A DNA stretch of 64,000 bases from an uncultured Acidobacteriota bacterium (GCA_902826605.1 CADEFM010000002.1:124001-188000), one strand, 5' to 3'. Shown: positions 43,359 through 49,827, counted from the stretch's first letter. The notes: generated from the sequence alone by a model not told the origin. Numbers and translations: made by a program.

Positions 43359-44969
43359 TTAAGTGTCCTTCAGATTCCTGACCGTTCGCACCTGGCTGCC
43401 CGGGAACATTTCCTGGAAGCGCTGAACTTCGGGATGCGCCATCGCGCGCGTTGCGGCATCATCGCCGGAAACCGGAGTCACAATTCCCGGCTGCGGAGCG
43501 GCCTCCCCTATTTTGACGGTCACCCGGACCGGGCGTCCGGCCACCCGCTTTGCGGCTGCCTCAAATTCGGGTTGCTTGAGAAACATCAGATACATCTTCG
43601 GTGTGGTGAAAATCAGTTCGCCTGGTGTTTCCGCTACGCTAGAATGCTCCAGTGCGTCGGCCAAGTGCGTGAGCTTGCCTTGCGCTAGCGCCGAAAAAAG
43701 CCGCGAACGGAAATCGCCGGATTCTGGAGGTGGAGGCGCATTCGCCGCAGTCGCCGGTGGAATGGATCGCACCTCGGCCGAGGGCACATAACCTGCCTGG
43801 ACCTGGCCTATGGGCCTGCTCGGCGCGCGCAATCCGGACGCGGGAGCGGTCAAGCCCGCTAGCGCTTCTTCAATCGGCTGCAACCGGCTCGCATGCACCA
43901 TTCGAAGCAGCCCCATCTCCAAATGCAGGCGGGGTTGCAGGGAAACCTGCAAGGCACTGAACAATTCGAGCGTCAATTGAAGATAACGCGTCAAATCCTC
44001 TTCACTAAACCGCCCGGCTGTACCGGCGAGCTTCTCCTGCTCAGCGGGAGAAGCCGCCACCAGCCGCGTGGACGATCCCGCTATTTTCACTACGAGCAAA
44101 TTACGGAAATACCGCGCCAGTTCCCGTGCGAAATGTTGCAGGCTGCGGCCGTTGGATTCAAGCTCTGCGGCAATGTCGAACATTTTCCGCACGTCGCCCG
44201 CCGTCAAGGCTTGCGCAACCTGATCCAGCGATTCCAGCGCGAACATCCCGAGCAAAGTGCGTACCTGGGAAGCTTCGAGAGTAGTACCGCAACAGGCGAT
44301 CGCCTGATCCAGGGCCGAAAGCGAATCCCGGACACTGCCCTCGCCGGCCAGCGCCAGCACGCTCAGCACCTCGGCGTCGGCAGTGATTCCTTCTTGCTTG
44401 GCGATCCATTCCATACGCGCGGCTAAAGATGCGAAATCAACAGACCGAAAACTGAACTGCTGACAGCGCGATTGAATGGTGGTTGGAATCTTGTGCGATT
44501 CGGTGGTGCACAAAATAAAAACCACCCATTCGGGCGGCTCTTCCAGCGTCTTGAGCAGCGCGTTGAAGGCTTCGCTGGTGATTTGATGCGCCTCATCGAC
44601 GATAAATATCTTGTAGCGGTCCCGCGCCGGCCGGAAGCGTACGCTTTCGCGCAGCTCCCGCATTTCATTGATGCCGCGGTTGGATGCGGCGTCGATCTCA
44701 ATCACGTCGATTGCGCCTCCCGCCGTAATTTCCTTGCAGCTGGCGCACACGCCGCACGGATGGGCCGTCGGACCCTGCTCGCAATTCAAACATCGCGCCA
44801 TGATCCGCGCGACCGTGGTTTTGCCGGTTCCGCGCTGTCCTGAAAAGATGTAGCCGTGCGCAATGCGGCGCTGCGCGATGGCGTTTTCAAGCGTGGTCTT
44901 GACGTGTTCCTGGCTGATCAGCTCCTCAAATGCCTGGGGACGGTATTTGCGGGCGATAACCTGGTACAT
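43359..44969 (-). CDS. dnaX: DNA polymerase III subunits gamma/tau
   Basis: 536 residues from the ATG at 44969 (MYQVIARKYRPQAFEELISQEHVKTTL), the standard start. Walker A SGQRGTGKTT, zinc finger CLNCEQGPTAHPCGVCASC, Walker B IFIVDEAHQIT, sensor FILCTTESHKIPTTIQSRCQQF. Clamp-loader core to about residue 360, then a Pro/Ala-rich linker and a tau-like C-terminus. Starts 22 bp downstream of the SRP RNA and probably shares its transcript. Confidence 0.94.
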   Translation of the reverse strand: MYQVIARKYRPQAFEELISQEHVKTTLENAIAQRRIAHGYIFSGQRGTGKTTVARIMARCLNCEQGPTAHPCGVCASCKEITAGGAIDVIEIDAASNRGINEMRELRESVRFRPARDRYKIFIVDEAHQITSEAFNALLKTLEEPPEWVVFILCTTESHKIPTTIQSRCQQFSFRSVDFASLAARMEWIAKQEGITADAEVLSVLALAGEGSVRDSLSALDQAIACCGTTLEASQVRTLLGMFALESLDQVAQALTAGDVRKMFDIAAELESNGRSLQHFARELARYFRNLLVVKIAGSSTRLVAASPAEQEKLAGTAGRFSEEDLTRYLQLTLELFSALQVSLQPRLHLEMGLLRMVHASRLQPIEEALAGLTAPASGLRAPSRPIGQVQAGYVPSAEVRSIPPATAANAPPPPESGDFRSRLFSALAQGKLTHLADALEHSSVAETPGELIFTTPKMYLMFLKQPEFEAAAKRVAGRPVRVTVKIGEAAPQPGIVTPVSGDDAATRAMAHPEVQRFQEMFPGSQVRTVRNLKDT

Positions 44970-44991
44970 GGTGGGGTCGCTGAGTGAACAT

Positions 44992-45098
44992 GCCAGACCC
45001 CGGGTAATCCGCGGCACACGGGTTAAACCACTACCGTTGCTTCCTTCCGGACCTGGCGGGGTTTGCAGCCGCCCGTTGCACGAAGCCCGGAGCCTGAC
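44992..45098 (-). ncRNA. ffs: bacterial small (4.5S-type) signal recognition particle RNA
   Basis: The minus strand contains CAGGTCCGGAAGGAAGCA, the universal symmetric and asymmetric loop of domain IV that binds Ffh. The ends pair almost completely: GTCAGGCTCCGGG at the 5' side (45098 down) with CCCGGGGTCTGGC at the 3' side (to 44992). About 107 nt, normal for a 4.5S-type RNA. Placement directly before dnaX is common in bacteria. Its promoter must lie in the 75 bp before the divergent mcrB gene. Confidence 0.92.
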
Positions 45099-45173
45099 AA
45101 CTTCCTATGCTAGCAGATCGACCCAGGGCGCTACGCTGTATATTAGAACCTTTATGTTAGGCATAGAGAGCAA

Positions 45174-47735
45174 ATGCAAATGAGTAGAATCCTCAACTTC
45201 GCGGACGCGCTTGCCTCGTACAATCGCGAAACTGATCGAGAATACATCGCCCTCGGCGAGAACGAACGTAAAGAGATCCTTGGTCGGTTCCCGCGCAGCG
45301 ACTGGCCCACGATGCCAATCGAAAAGTACGCGCTCGGCCAAGACGGAAGCGAAAGCACTTTCTGCGCCTGGGTAGAATACCAGTCTCAGCACCTCGGCAG
45401 CATCGCTGGCGGAAGTGCAAAGAAGCTACTTATCTACAAAAGGAGGACAGGCGAGGGTTGGTATTTTGAGCCCACATATGGGTCCGTAGAGCAGGCTTGG
45501 GAGGAAGTTCGAGGTTCCTTTGTCCGTGCGCTCGAGCTTGCCGAAGCAGGCGAGTGGGCGGCCATCGACGAGCTAAAACCAATCGGCGCGGGTCCAGCTC
45601 TGAAAGTGAAGACGCTTCATATTTACTTCCCGGAGCATGTAATGCCTGTAGCGGCACGGGAACATGTCCTGCATTTTCTCAAGAAGCTCGAGGCATTCAC
45701 CCCGGAGTTGGAAGCGGCCGAGCGAATTACGCTGAACAGAGCACTCACTACGACGGTTCTCTCGATTCCGGATTTCAAGGGTTGGACGACCAATGAGATT
45801 GAGCGCTTCCTCTACTGGTGGGCCGACCCAAGGGAAACCAGAAGAGTTGTAAAAATAGCGCCCGGCGAAGGCGCGAAATATTGGGCGGAATGCCTTGAGC
45901 GCGGATACATTCGAGTTGGCTGGGACGAGGTTGGGGATTTGCGTCGTTTCGCCGGGAAGGAAGAATTTGAAGAGGAATTTGGAAGACAGTTTAGCGAACT
46001 GTATAGAAGCCACGCACCAACGATCAAGAAAAAGGGTAACGAGGTATGGCAACTGGCCGAGCTCGAAGAGGGCGACATTGTCGTAGCAAACAAGGGCATC
46101 TCGCGGGTTCTCGCCATAGGCGAAGTAGTCAGTCCTGGTTACGAGTGGAACGCTGGTCTAACTGAATTCCGTCATACCGTCCGGGTGAAATGGGACCTCT
46201 CGTATGCTCAAGACATTGAACCCCAAAAGCGCTGGGCGTTAGTTACCGTGGCGAACGTTCCAGCAGAGCTCTACGAATCGATTCTTACGAAGCCGGGTAA
46301 GAAAGCGCCGGGTGGGATCGCTCCGCCGTCCGGCGTTGCAGATCCGGTGCACAGTGCCATAGCCAATGCACTTGGGCGCAAGGGCCAGTTAATTCTTTAT
46401 GGCCCACCCGGAACTGGAAAGACGTATATTGCACGCCGTTTTGCTGTCTGGTGGATGCTAAAGGATACCAGCGAGGATGCAAATGCTGTCCTTGCCAGCC
46501 ATGAGCTATTTAGGGCAGCAGAGCGACTGCTCACTACGACTGTAAGTTCTCGACGAGTATGGTGGGTCGTCGCGAATCCGAAGGAATGGAAGTGGGACGT
46601 TCTCTTTAGCAACGGAAGCGAGGTCTTTCGACGGGGCCGCATGCAGAAGCACTATTCGCTCATTCGCCCTGGAGATCTCGTCGTCGGGTATCAGGCAACG
46701 CCGGATAGACGCATCATGGCCATTGCAAAGGTCAGCAAGAACGCAGCTCAAATGTCCGGCGATGCCCCTGGCTTCGAAATCGTTCCAATCCGGAAGTTGA
46801 GCAATGGTCCCACGTATGAGCAACTATTAGAGCGCCCAGTGCTGAAGAACTCAGAGCCTCTGCGCTTCAACAATCAAGGGACGCTCTTTGCTCTAACGCC
46901 GGAAGAGGTGGATGATCTCGCCGACATGATCGGCGACAAAGACCCTGAAAGCGCGAGGGTTCTAACGGAAGATAGTCTTGGTGCGCTGACGTGGACAACT
47001 TTCCATCCTTCGTACTCTTACGAAGACTTCGTCGAAGGACTTCGGCCATTCGACGCGGGCGAGGGCCGAGTCGGACTGAAGCTCGACGACGGGCTCTTTA
47101 AGCGTCTTTGCCGGACGGCGGAGAGCAGGCCGAACCAGAGATACCTCCTCATAATCGACGAGATTAATCGGGCGAACGTGTCAAAGGTATTTGGAGAGTT
47201 GATTACGGTTCTGGAACGCGATAAGAGGGGCCTGCCGGTGGTTCTTCCGCAGAGCAAGCAATCGTTTGTCGTACCGCCGAATGTTTATATTCTGGCGACG
47301 ATGAACACCGCCGACCGAAGCATCCGTTTGCTGGATGCAGCGCTCAGACGCCGGTTCGCGTTTCTTGAATTGATGCCTGATTCACAGAAGCTGCAAGGAG
47401 CGGCAGTAGGCGGGCTCGCATTGGATGAGTTGATGGAGACACTCAATGCCCGGATCTCAAAACACGTCGGGAGAGAAAAGCAACTGGGGCATTCCTATTT
47501 TCTCGATGGCGGCCAGCCAGTGACAGACCCGGATCAGTTCGCGCAGAGGTTCCGCCAAGAGATTCTTCCGGTGCTTCAAGAGTATTGCTATGAGGATTAT
47601 CGTTTACTCACTGATTATCTTGGTTCAAAACTTGTTGACGCAGACGCTCAACGGTTAAATGACGCCGTCTTGAACGACCCGACCGAGCTGATTGCCGCAT
47701 TGATACAGCTGGTAGATGGGGATAAGACAGCGTGA
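45174..47735 (+). CDS. mcrB: McrB-family GTPase with PUA/EVE-like readers, one inserted in the GTPase domain
   Basis: 853 residues. Residues about 1-180: N-terminal domain seen before some McrB-like ATPases (FPRSDWPTMPIEKYALGQ, GGSAKKLLIYKRR). About 205-345: PUA/EVE-like module (YWAECLERGYIRVGWDEV, EGDIVVANKGISRVLAIGEVVS). Walker A GPPGTGKT at 410-417. About 462-580: a second EVE-like module (VWWVVANPKEWKWDVLF, LIRPGDLVVGYQATPDRRIMAIAKV) inserted before FHPSYSYEDFVEGLRP. Walker B LLIIDEI ends near 663; the McrB guanine-specific motif MNTADRS is at 710-716. EVE/PUA domains read modified cytosines, so this would recognise modified foreign DNA and drive McrC. A second ATG two codons in is an alternative start. 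Confidence 0.85.
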   Translation: MQMSRILNFADALASYNRETDREYIALGENERKEILGRFPRSDWPTMPIEKYALGQDGSESTFCAWVEYQSQHLGSIAGGSAKKLLIYKRRTGEGWYFEPTYGSVEQAWEEVRGSFVRALELAEAGEWAAIDELKPIGAGPALKVKTLHIYFPEHVMPVAAREHVLHFLKKLEAFTPELEAAERITLNRALTTTVLSIPDFKGWTTNEIERFLYWWADPRETRRVVKIAPGEGAKYWAECLERGYIRVGWDEVGDLRRFAGKEEFEEEFGRQFSELYRSHAPTIKKKGNEVWQLAELEEGDIVVANKGISRVLAIGEVVSPGYEWNAGLTEFRHTVRVKWDLSYAQDIEPQKRWALVTVANVPAELYESILTKPGKKAPGGIAPPSGVADPVHSAIANALGRKGQLILYGPPGTGKTYIARRFAVWWMLKDTSEDANAVLASHELFRAAERLLTTTVSSRRVWWVVANPKEWKWDVLFSNGSEVFRRGRMQKHYSLIRPGDLVVGYQATPDRRIMAIAKVSKNAAQMSGDAPGFEIVPIRKLSNGPTYEQLLERPVLKNSEPLRFNNQGTLFALTPEEVDDLADMIGDKDPESARVLTEDSLGALTWTTFHPSYSYEDFVEGLRPFDAGEGRVGLKLDDGLFKRLCRTAESRPNQRYLLIIDEINRANVSKVFGELITVLERDKRGLPVVLPQSKQSFVVPPNVYILATMNTADRSIRLLDAALRRRFAFLELMPDSQKLQGAAVGGLALDELMETLNARISKHVGREKQLGHSYFLDGGQPVTDPDQFAQRFRQEILPVLQEYCYEDYRLLTDYLGSKLVDADAQRLNDAVLNDPTELIAALIQLVDGDKTA

Positions 47736-49015
47736 CTGTGGCGGTCGCAAAATGTGTCGTTGAGCTGAGTGAATGGGAAGAACGGCTTATCCCAGCAATC
47801 CTTACCCCTAGTGATCGCCATCTCGCCGAACAGCTCTCTACGGCTGGGAGACTGGTTGTCGAGGAGCTCACGACCGGTTTCCGAATTCGTTCGCAATCCT
47901 GGGTGGGCCTCATAAGCTTCGAGAGATTTGACCTCCGAGTTGTTCCAAAGTTGAAGGACGGCAACACTCGCTTGGTGCAGATGCTTGCCCTCACTGGGGG
48001 GATAAAAGCGGCTTGGCAGAACGAGGCGGTTCGGACGCTGCAGGCCGAACGAGTATCGGATCTGCTCGATCTGTTGTTACTGCTGCTCGTTCGAGAATCC
48101 GAGCGTATTCTTGCTGGAGGTGTGCTCCACGATTACATCGAGCGAGAAGAGGCGCTTCACGTCGTTCGTGGTCGCTTCCTGGCCGACCGGCAGTGGCAAA
48201 GACGCTTCGGTCAATTCGATCTTTTGGAATGCCGGTTTGACGACCACGATAGCGACATTGATGAGAACCGCCTCGTAGCGTTTGCGCTTGGCGCGTGCCG
48301 GGCACTAGTTCGTGACGGTTCTTTGCGGAGGCGTGTCCTGAGTCTTCATGAACAGTTCGCTTCGATCTGCGAGAGCGACAAGATTGACCCGCGAGAACTT
48401 CGAACTCGCCTCGTCTATCACCGCCTAAACTCGCACTATGCCGGTGCGCACGAACTATGCTGGCTGATTTTGGACGCCATGGGCGTTGCTGACCTGCTTG
48501 TGAGTGGTTCTGTTCGAAGTAATGTATTTCTGATCGACATGAACGTGGTCTTTGAGCGCTTCGTAAGAAAGCTGATCGAATTCAGCGTCGGAGCGGCTTA
48601 TCGAGTACAGTACCAGCTGAAGACTCGATCTATCCTCTGGGACACCGATCGTAACCGCCCCTACAGTGCGGTCATCCCCGATTTCGTACTGACGGGGTCG
48701 AGTGGAAACATAGTGATAGACGCGAAATACAAACTGGGCAAGCTGGACAACGCGGATATCTATCAATGTTTTTTGTACGCTCAAGCCTTCGGAAGCGCTT
48801 CGTCAGCGTCGCGAGCATTTCTTGTGGTGCCATCAACGAGCAGCACACTGGAATATTCAACATTGGAAGTCCGGGGCGTTCAAGGCGTTAGAAAAGCGGT
48901 TCTCCACCGTGTTGGTGTGCCCGTTGCGACTGCGGTGGATGAGCTTCGGGAAAACAAGCTCGGGCCCACCTGCGCGAAATTGGCAGGACTATTCTCGCAG
49001 CCCGCAAGCGTCTAG
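47732..49015 (+). CDS. mcrC: McrC-family nuclease subunit
   Basis: 427 residues, GTG start overlapping the mcrB stop (GTGA). The N-terminal McrC domain includes SWVGLISFERFDLRVVPKL. The C-terminal PD-(D/E)xK nuclease has IPDFVL (Asp317) and IVIDAKYK (Asp330, Lys332), preceded by NVVFERFVRKLIE. It stimulates McrB GTPase and cuts DNA between modified sites. Complete catalytic set, so the system looks functional. Confidence 0.88.
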   Translation: MTVAVAKCVVELSEWEERLIPAILTPSDRHLAEQLSTAGRLVVEELTTGFRIRSQSWVGLISFERFDLRVVPKLKDGNTRLVQMLALTGGIKAAWQNEAVRTLQAERVSDLLDLLLLLLVRESERILAGGVLHDYIEREEALHVVRGRFLADRQWQRRFGQFDLLECRFDDHDSDIDENRLVAFALGACRALVRDGSLRRRVLSLHEQFASICESDKIDPRELRTRLVYHRLNSHYAGAHELCWLILDAMGVADLLVSGSVRSNVFLIDMNVVFERFVRKLIEFSVGAAYRVQYQLKTRSILWDTDRNRPYSAVIPDFVLTGSSGNIVIDAKYKLGKLDNADIYQCFLYAQAFGSASSASRAFLVVPSTSSTLEYSTLEVRGVQGVRKAVLHRVGVPVATAVDELRENKLGPTCAKLAGLFSQPASV

Positions 49016-49017
49016 CG

Positions 49018-49224
49018 ATTTTCTCATCAGGCCTCGACGTAGATTGGCGATCCGCCAACCGCCTGGCGTGCCCTTGCTGACCCTCTCTTCCCGCTCAGAG
49101 CCTGCGAGGCAACCGCACGCGAGCCGAATACTCCCGTCATGTCCACGGGCCGCAATTCGTTTTGTTCCATCAGAAACCTCAGAGTATCGAAGGGTGTGGC
49201 TCCCGGCGGCGCAACCGTGCGGTC
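49018..49224 (-). pseudogene. HigA-type (XRE) antitoxin relic
   Basis: The minus strand reads DTLRFLMEQNELRPVDMTGV then FGSRAVASQALSGKRG, the characteristic HigA/COG5499 pattern (LRFLME-x-GL-x-x-DL ... GSR-x-x-x-SE-x-L-x-GKR). The expected continuation ISK-x-HARRLA is split: SKG lies in one other frame and HARRLADR in a third, so two frameshifts follow GKRG. The N-terminus is cut and no HigB-like toxin is left; nuoB occupies that side. One open frame of 47 codons (49027-49170) remains but ends in nonsense sequence. Confidence 0.68.
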
Positions 49225-49260
49225 CCCTGCCTGACTCCCGCGTTACACTGAATAGTAGCG

Positions 49261-49823
<563 letters not shown>

Positions 49824-49827
<4 letters not shown>

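Follow-up and report, generated by a model that had tools for sequence, protein, structure and literature searches.

A candidate McrBC restriction system with an EVE domain inserted in the McrB GTPase motor and a second PUA-type domain in front of it

Positions 45174-49015 of the window (the whole 64,000-nucleotide stretch of DNA that was analyzed) encode an McrB whose AAA+ GTPase motor is interrupted by an EVE domain, and an McrC nuclease partner. We put at roughly 0.7 the probability that this is an McrBC system with two PUA-type readers of modified bases, one standing before the motor and the other, the EVE domain, set into the AAA+ GTPase between helix alpha1 and strand beta2. What the tools used show directly is the order of the domains, the fold of the EVE, the precise point of insertion, motor and nuclease motifs that are intact, and recurrence of the insert in two McrB lineages. 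By its gene content the locus appears to be a two-gene Type IV (modification-dependent) restriction system, for which GTP-dependent restriction of modified DNA is predicted. Its features are these:

45174..47735, + strand: mcrB, 853-aa McrB-family AAA+ GTPase subunit with inserted EVE (ORF; Pfam AAA_5 and EVE)
45180..45818, + strand: N-terminal helical domain, residues 3-215 (PADLOC PD-T4-1, E 1e-19; model helical to residue 217)
45843..46289, + strand: second reader ("R2"), PUA superfamily, EVE/YTH type, residues 224-372 (model, structure match, PADLOC)
46401..46424, + strand: Walker A, GPPGTGKT, residues 410-417 (sequence)
46539..46982, + strand: inserted block, residues 456-603, missing from relatives L004, L034 and L035 (alignment)
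46551..46967, + strand: EVE domain within the insert, residues 460-598 (Pfam EVE; structure match)
46998..47030, + strand: continuation of the AAA+ core after the insert, with the beta2 strand motif TFHPSYSYEDF, residues 609-619 (sequence, alignment)
47157..47171, + strand: Walker B, DEINR, residues 662-666 (sequence)
47304..47315, + strand: McrB signature NxxD (NTAD), residues 711-714 (sequence)
47732..49015, + strand: mcrC, 427-aa nuclease subunit (Pfam McrBC PF10117, E 4.2e-44; motifs)

The mcrB reading frame is open throughout, without interruption (45174-47735), and overlaps mcrC by 4 bp. Its product matches PRK11331 (McrB) with E 3e-45 and has an AAA+ domain bearing the motifs by which McrB is recognized (Walker A, Walker B and NxxD). 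The adjacent mcrC carries both PF10117 and the PD-(D/E)xK nuclease motifs, which are intact by sequence (PD at residues 316-317; DxK, here DAK, at 330-332). The architecture of McrB is thus a helical N-terminal domain, a PUA-type reader, and an AAA+ motor holding an EVE domain.

An EVE domain between Walker A and strand beta2

The two Walker motifs lie where the preliminary description had placed them, Walker A at 410 (GPPGTGKT) and Walker B at about 662 (DEINR), and are 252 residues apart (410 to 662), an excess of about 174 over E. coli McrB, for which a count on alignments gives 78 (from G201 to D279); the spacing of roughly 100 first quoted for E. coli was too high. Across 104 McrBs the number of residues between the motifs is 75-141 in 77 proteins and 208-285 in the other 27, with nothing in the gap between those ranges, and since part of the search patterns was derived from the insert, frequencies among the 104 are biased. 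In an AlphaFold2 monomer model of McrB (mean pLDDT 86.1, pTM 0.50, 25 sequences), the AAA+ core on both sides of the insert (390-847) matches the McrB of Thermococcus gammatolerans (6ut4) with Z 28.6. The placement of domains relative to one another in this model is unreliable because of the pTM of 0.50.

Pfam EVE (PF01878) matches residues 462-578 with 33.6 bits (cut-off 23, E 4.6e-8), and scores above its cut-off in five independent inserted relatives as well (L002, L003, L031, L032, L033). A search with a profile built from six inserts reaches Rpa0253 (2gbs), an EVE protein of known structure, with E 5.8e-4. In the model, residues ~460-600 take an EVE fold, with matches to 1zce (Z 16.8), 2ar1 (16.6), 2gbs (16.4), 2eve (16.0) and 5j3e (15.2), the last being human THYN1 solved with 5mC DNA, at rmsd 2.2-2.8 across 127-136 residues. 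An EVE-like reader within the GTPase domain had been proposed from two patterns, WWVVANPKEW and RPGDLVVGYQ; these are located at 463-472 and 498-507, and the profile match and the modeled fold together confirm an EVE domain there. Segment 462-580 does not belong to the normal AAA+ core, as residues 460-598 are modeled as a separate EVE fold.

Three full-length relatives (L004, L034, L035), about 50% identical and with the same N-terminal half, show in alignment that only block 456-603 is absent from them, and helix 443-454 there joins the TFHPSY strand directly. The existence of relatives that lack exactly this block marks it as a clean insertion. The insertion point is the link from the helix after Walker A (alpha1 plus a short extension) to strand beta2. 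An origin of the block in assembly error or chance similarity is refuted: nothing was found in its favor, and against it stand eight loci with a clear insert, of which seven show no frame break, distributed over the window's phylum, Chloroflexi, Lentisphaerae and one further bacterium, together with the unbroken mcrB frame, the Pfam E-value and the structural Z scores of 15-17.

The domain in front of the motor had been described as a second PUA/EVE-like unit at about 205-345. The unit stands, with a fold of PUA/EVE/YTH type, and its boundaries are better drawn at about 224-372, the start having moved because residues 1-217 form a separate helical domain. It is modeled with pLDDT 95.7, and its structural matches (VIA-align Z) are PH1033 (2hd9, 11.0), VcaM4I (6yex, 10.5) and YTHDF2 (7z8w, 9.1), with classical EVE proteins at 8.1-8.4, all over alignments of 108-116 residues. 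PADLOC places it with the PDC-S02 candidates (E 1.6e-11). Searches by sequence gave no Pfam family match for the front reader of the window's McrB, a Pfam PUA match in one of 25 front-reader relatives (E 0.16), and nothing meaningful from the PDB with front-reader profiles; a comparison of the EVE and front-reader profiles aligned only 26 columns with probability 3%, which does not show the two to be related at the sequence level. The helical domain ahead of it, which has no Pfam match, is related to the N-terminus of the anti-T4 (anti-phage) defence protein PD-T4-1 (E 1e-19).

Occupants of the slot and lineages of the motor

It would appear that the alpha1-beta2 slot is a tolerant surface loop, which some lineages fill with an EVE domain, some with another module, and some leave empty. 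Apart from EVE, its content in relatives is a predicted-helical module of ~100 residues (L052, L056, L060, L062, L064, L067, L070, L073, L077, L082, L084, L091, L097, L098) or nothing. This module looks winged-helix-like by eye (L056, L073 and others) and has no Pfam family match. Three McrBs from Euryarchaeota/Methanoculleus (L046, L049, L051) also fill the alpha1-beta2 site, with an EVE-like insert that has diverged strongly and was detected by an EVE profile; Pfam EVE gives no match to that of L046. A second slot lies just before Walker B, after the beta2 region. Its occupant in L110 (E 8e-12) and in L108 (E 2e-4) is a reader of the R2 type, which usually stands ahead of the McrB motor. A different insert occupies the pre-Walker B position in L016 and L022, with no Pfam match in L016, the one of the two that was scanned. 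The coordinates are as follows:

L056:4835-5509 and L073:5692-6357: helical module in the alpha1-beta2 slot, examples
L046:1134-1586, L049:6127-6579 and L051:6133-6585: diverged EVE-like inserts (EVE profile, E 2e-7 to 3e-5)
L110:6352-6705 and L108:950-1282: R2-type reader before Walker B
L016:1192-1956 and L022:712-1563: different insert before Walker B

Nor is the EVE domain always found between Walker A and Walker B, a point on which the preliminary description had asked for homologs to be collected. In L018, L025, L111, L112, L123, L124 and L125, related EVEs immediately precede a motor that carries no insert, unlike the arrangement in the window's McrB.

In a tree of the motor core, built with the insert columns removed, the EVE insert recurs in two or more separate lineages of McrB, divided with support of 100/99. 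The first contains the window, L002, L003, L031 and L032, among uninserted relatives that bear R2; the second contains L033, L116 and L117, near L066 (no insert) and L067 (a different insert). Gene order is mcrB-mcrC in the first lineage and mcrC-mcrB in the second, as seen in L033 and also in L142 and L143 (wider stretches around L116 and L117), where McrC is recognized by motif only. The eight clear inserted EVEs cluster apart from N-terminal EVEs, weakly (85/60), with a single change in 89% of bootstrap trees. Either the exchange of an EVE cassette at this one slot or an early insertion followed by many losses fits these results. A topology placing the eight insert-bearing cores in a single clade was rejected (p 9.5e-49), with the same outcome on a larger set; the rejection suits repeated gain as well as ancestral gain with losses or exchange between lineages.

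Candidate mechanism and competing readings

In McrBC systems a reader binds the modified base, and McrB forms a GTP-bound hexamer whose pore McrC enters; McrC then stimulates hydrolysis, and its nuclease cuts. In the system of the window, the readers would most likely capture a modified base of foreign DNA by flipping it out, the ring of McrB would assemble with GTP, and McrC would stimulate hydrolysis and then cut; each subunit would bring two readers, one of them fixed into the motor. Strand beta2 is an edge strand of the AAA+ sheet, so the insert should sit on the surface away from the P-loop, and the embedded EVE probably lies on the outside of the ring. The preliminary description held that modified-base binding could be wired directly into the GTPase motor. 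This is right as anatomy; in function, too, reader and motor may be coupled.

Modified-base binding by the inserted EVE, and its specificity, are what we infer for this domain. EVE domains are able to take up a flipped 5mC/5hmC in a pocket, as shown with VcaM4I, whose pocket residues include P24, W82 and Y130 (PMC7897488). Among the six EVE inserts, of which the others are 40-50% identical to the window's copy, aromatic and proline residues are conserved throughout, and 28 of 156 columns are invariant. This retention of EVE core residues in diverged copies argues against a rather improbable alternative, in which the inserted EVE has ceased to read and now serves the ring structurally or as a regulator (in subunit contacts, McrC docking or braking of the GTPase), leaving recognition to the N-terminal reader alone. 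The relatives L004, L034 and L035 favor such a role, as they share the N-terminal half, lack the EVE, and so show it to be dispensable for the family; the related EVEs that other McrBs carry in the usual reader place before the motor speak against it. An inserted domain might also have assembly as its sole task.

EVE-superfamily domains also read RNA. EVE/YTH-type domains include readers of m6A in RNA, and the structural neighbors of the front reader include many YTH domains, so a system aimed at RNA instead of DNA, as proposed for the CoCoNuTs, deserves mention; CoCoNuT McrBs can carry YTH-like domains, according to the main text of PMC11090510. We hold this to be very unlikely for the window. 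The CoCoNuTs are described in that text as the NxD branch, whereas the signature here, NTAD, is NxxD and so lacks the mark of that group; moreover, no cold-shock or HEPN element was matched with Pfam or PADLOC, and McrC keeps its PD..DxK motifs.

Returning to the reading with two modified-base readers on DNA, we can extend it tentatively, and with more doubt than confidence, to a view of the alpha1-beta2 loop as a swappable sensor slot, with readers exchanged between lineages, up to six of them fixed round the ring, and binding reported straight to the motor. If true, a sensor slot would favor a DNA path outside the ring over one through the pore. How DNA contacts the McrB ring is an unsettled question; in the view of Niu et al. 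2020 (PMC7680126), the central pore is obstructed by McrC and is not the route of the DNA, and N-terminal domains were seen there on the outer ring edges. An inserted EVE acting as a reader would limit where bound DNA can be, being joined to the motor core through two closely spaced connections and not by one linker, and its position could help to test the DNA path at the ring. The motor of McrB, and not only its N-terminus, is thus a site at which likely recognition domains are added.

Relation to known systems, and distribution

The general phenomenon of specificity-domain insertions in the McrB GTPase is already known. In their McrBC census, Bell et al. 2024 (eLife, PMC11090510) state that such insertions are frequent, "likely encoding specificity domains"; the McrB of the window shares with theirs a probable specificity domain set within the GTPase. 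EVE-McrB is given as the commonest architecture in EVE-containing defence proteins by Bell et al. 2020; these fusions likewise join EVE to an McrB AAA+ domain, with several readers per protein. The remark in the preliminary description that EVE-bearing McrB branches are known from surveys agrees with these publications. The main-text passages of PMC11090510 that were consulted mention neither an EVE placed between the two Walker motifs, nor the alpha1-beta2 site, nor module exchange there, and no description of the exact arrangement was found in the passages of the literature searched; within these the EVE arrangement is apparently new.

The McrBC of Thermococcus gammatolerans (6ut3-6ut8, PMC7680126) has the nearest solved motor fold (Z 28.6) and also an McrC partner. 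Its McrB has a single PUA-superfamily (YTH) reader at the N-terminus, where the window's McrB has two readers, and no alpha1-beta2 insert, its Walker A-B distance of ~141 being due to extra length ahead of Walker B. E. coli K-12 McrBC shares with the window an NxxD AAA+ GTPase, an McrC nuclease, and mcrB placed before mcrC; its McrB differs in having an N-terminal DUF3578/ADAM reader, a Walker A-B distance of 78, and no insert. PcdA has an EVE before the motor, a degenerate Walker A and no McrC, whereas the EVE in the window's McrB is inside the motor. VcaM4I (EVE-HNH, 6yex) resembles the system in being a modification-dependent enzyme with an EVE-superfamily reader of 5mC/5hmC, and is among the best matches to the front reader (Z 10.5), but it is a single small protein with an HNH nuclease and no motor.

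In the window's phylum, 31 of the 396 genomes sampled have an McrB match at the threshold used, and three, including the window, have the EVE insert (L001, L002, L003). The phylum of the Chloroflexi locus L032 yields three EVE inserts (L032/L114, L116, L117) in 301 genomes, and that of the Lentisphaerae locus L033 yields, in 241 genomes, one inserted EVE vs. four in front of the motor (L123, L124, L125, L139). The list of the best 80 relatives gives no frequency, as the search patterns bias it toward the insert. In no McrB examined do the two positions, before the motor and inside it, both carry an EVE. Viral contigs scanned for the EVE profile yielded two McrBs, in each of which the EVE precedes the motor, and among plasmids only two records cover at least 80% of the query. 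In all six inserted McrBs checked by BLAST, mcrC adjoins.

Within the Chloroflexi phylum, the McrB at L143:3832-6536 (minus strand) is split over two overlapping frames, the first with the N-terminal domain and reader and the second with the motor and its EVE, by a frameshift that is either real or from assembly. In the window, mcrBC is flanked by dnaX-like and nuoB-like genes (43359-49827). The nearest relative from the same genus (G952) shares nuoB at 97% identity, and the sequence that precedes this gene there is different; its short contig ends 766 bases past nuoB.
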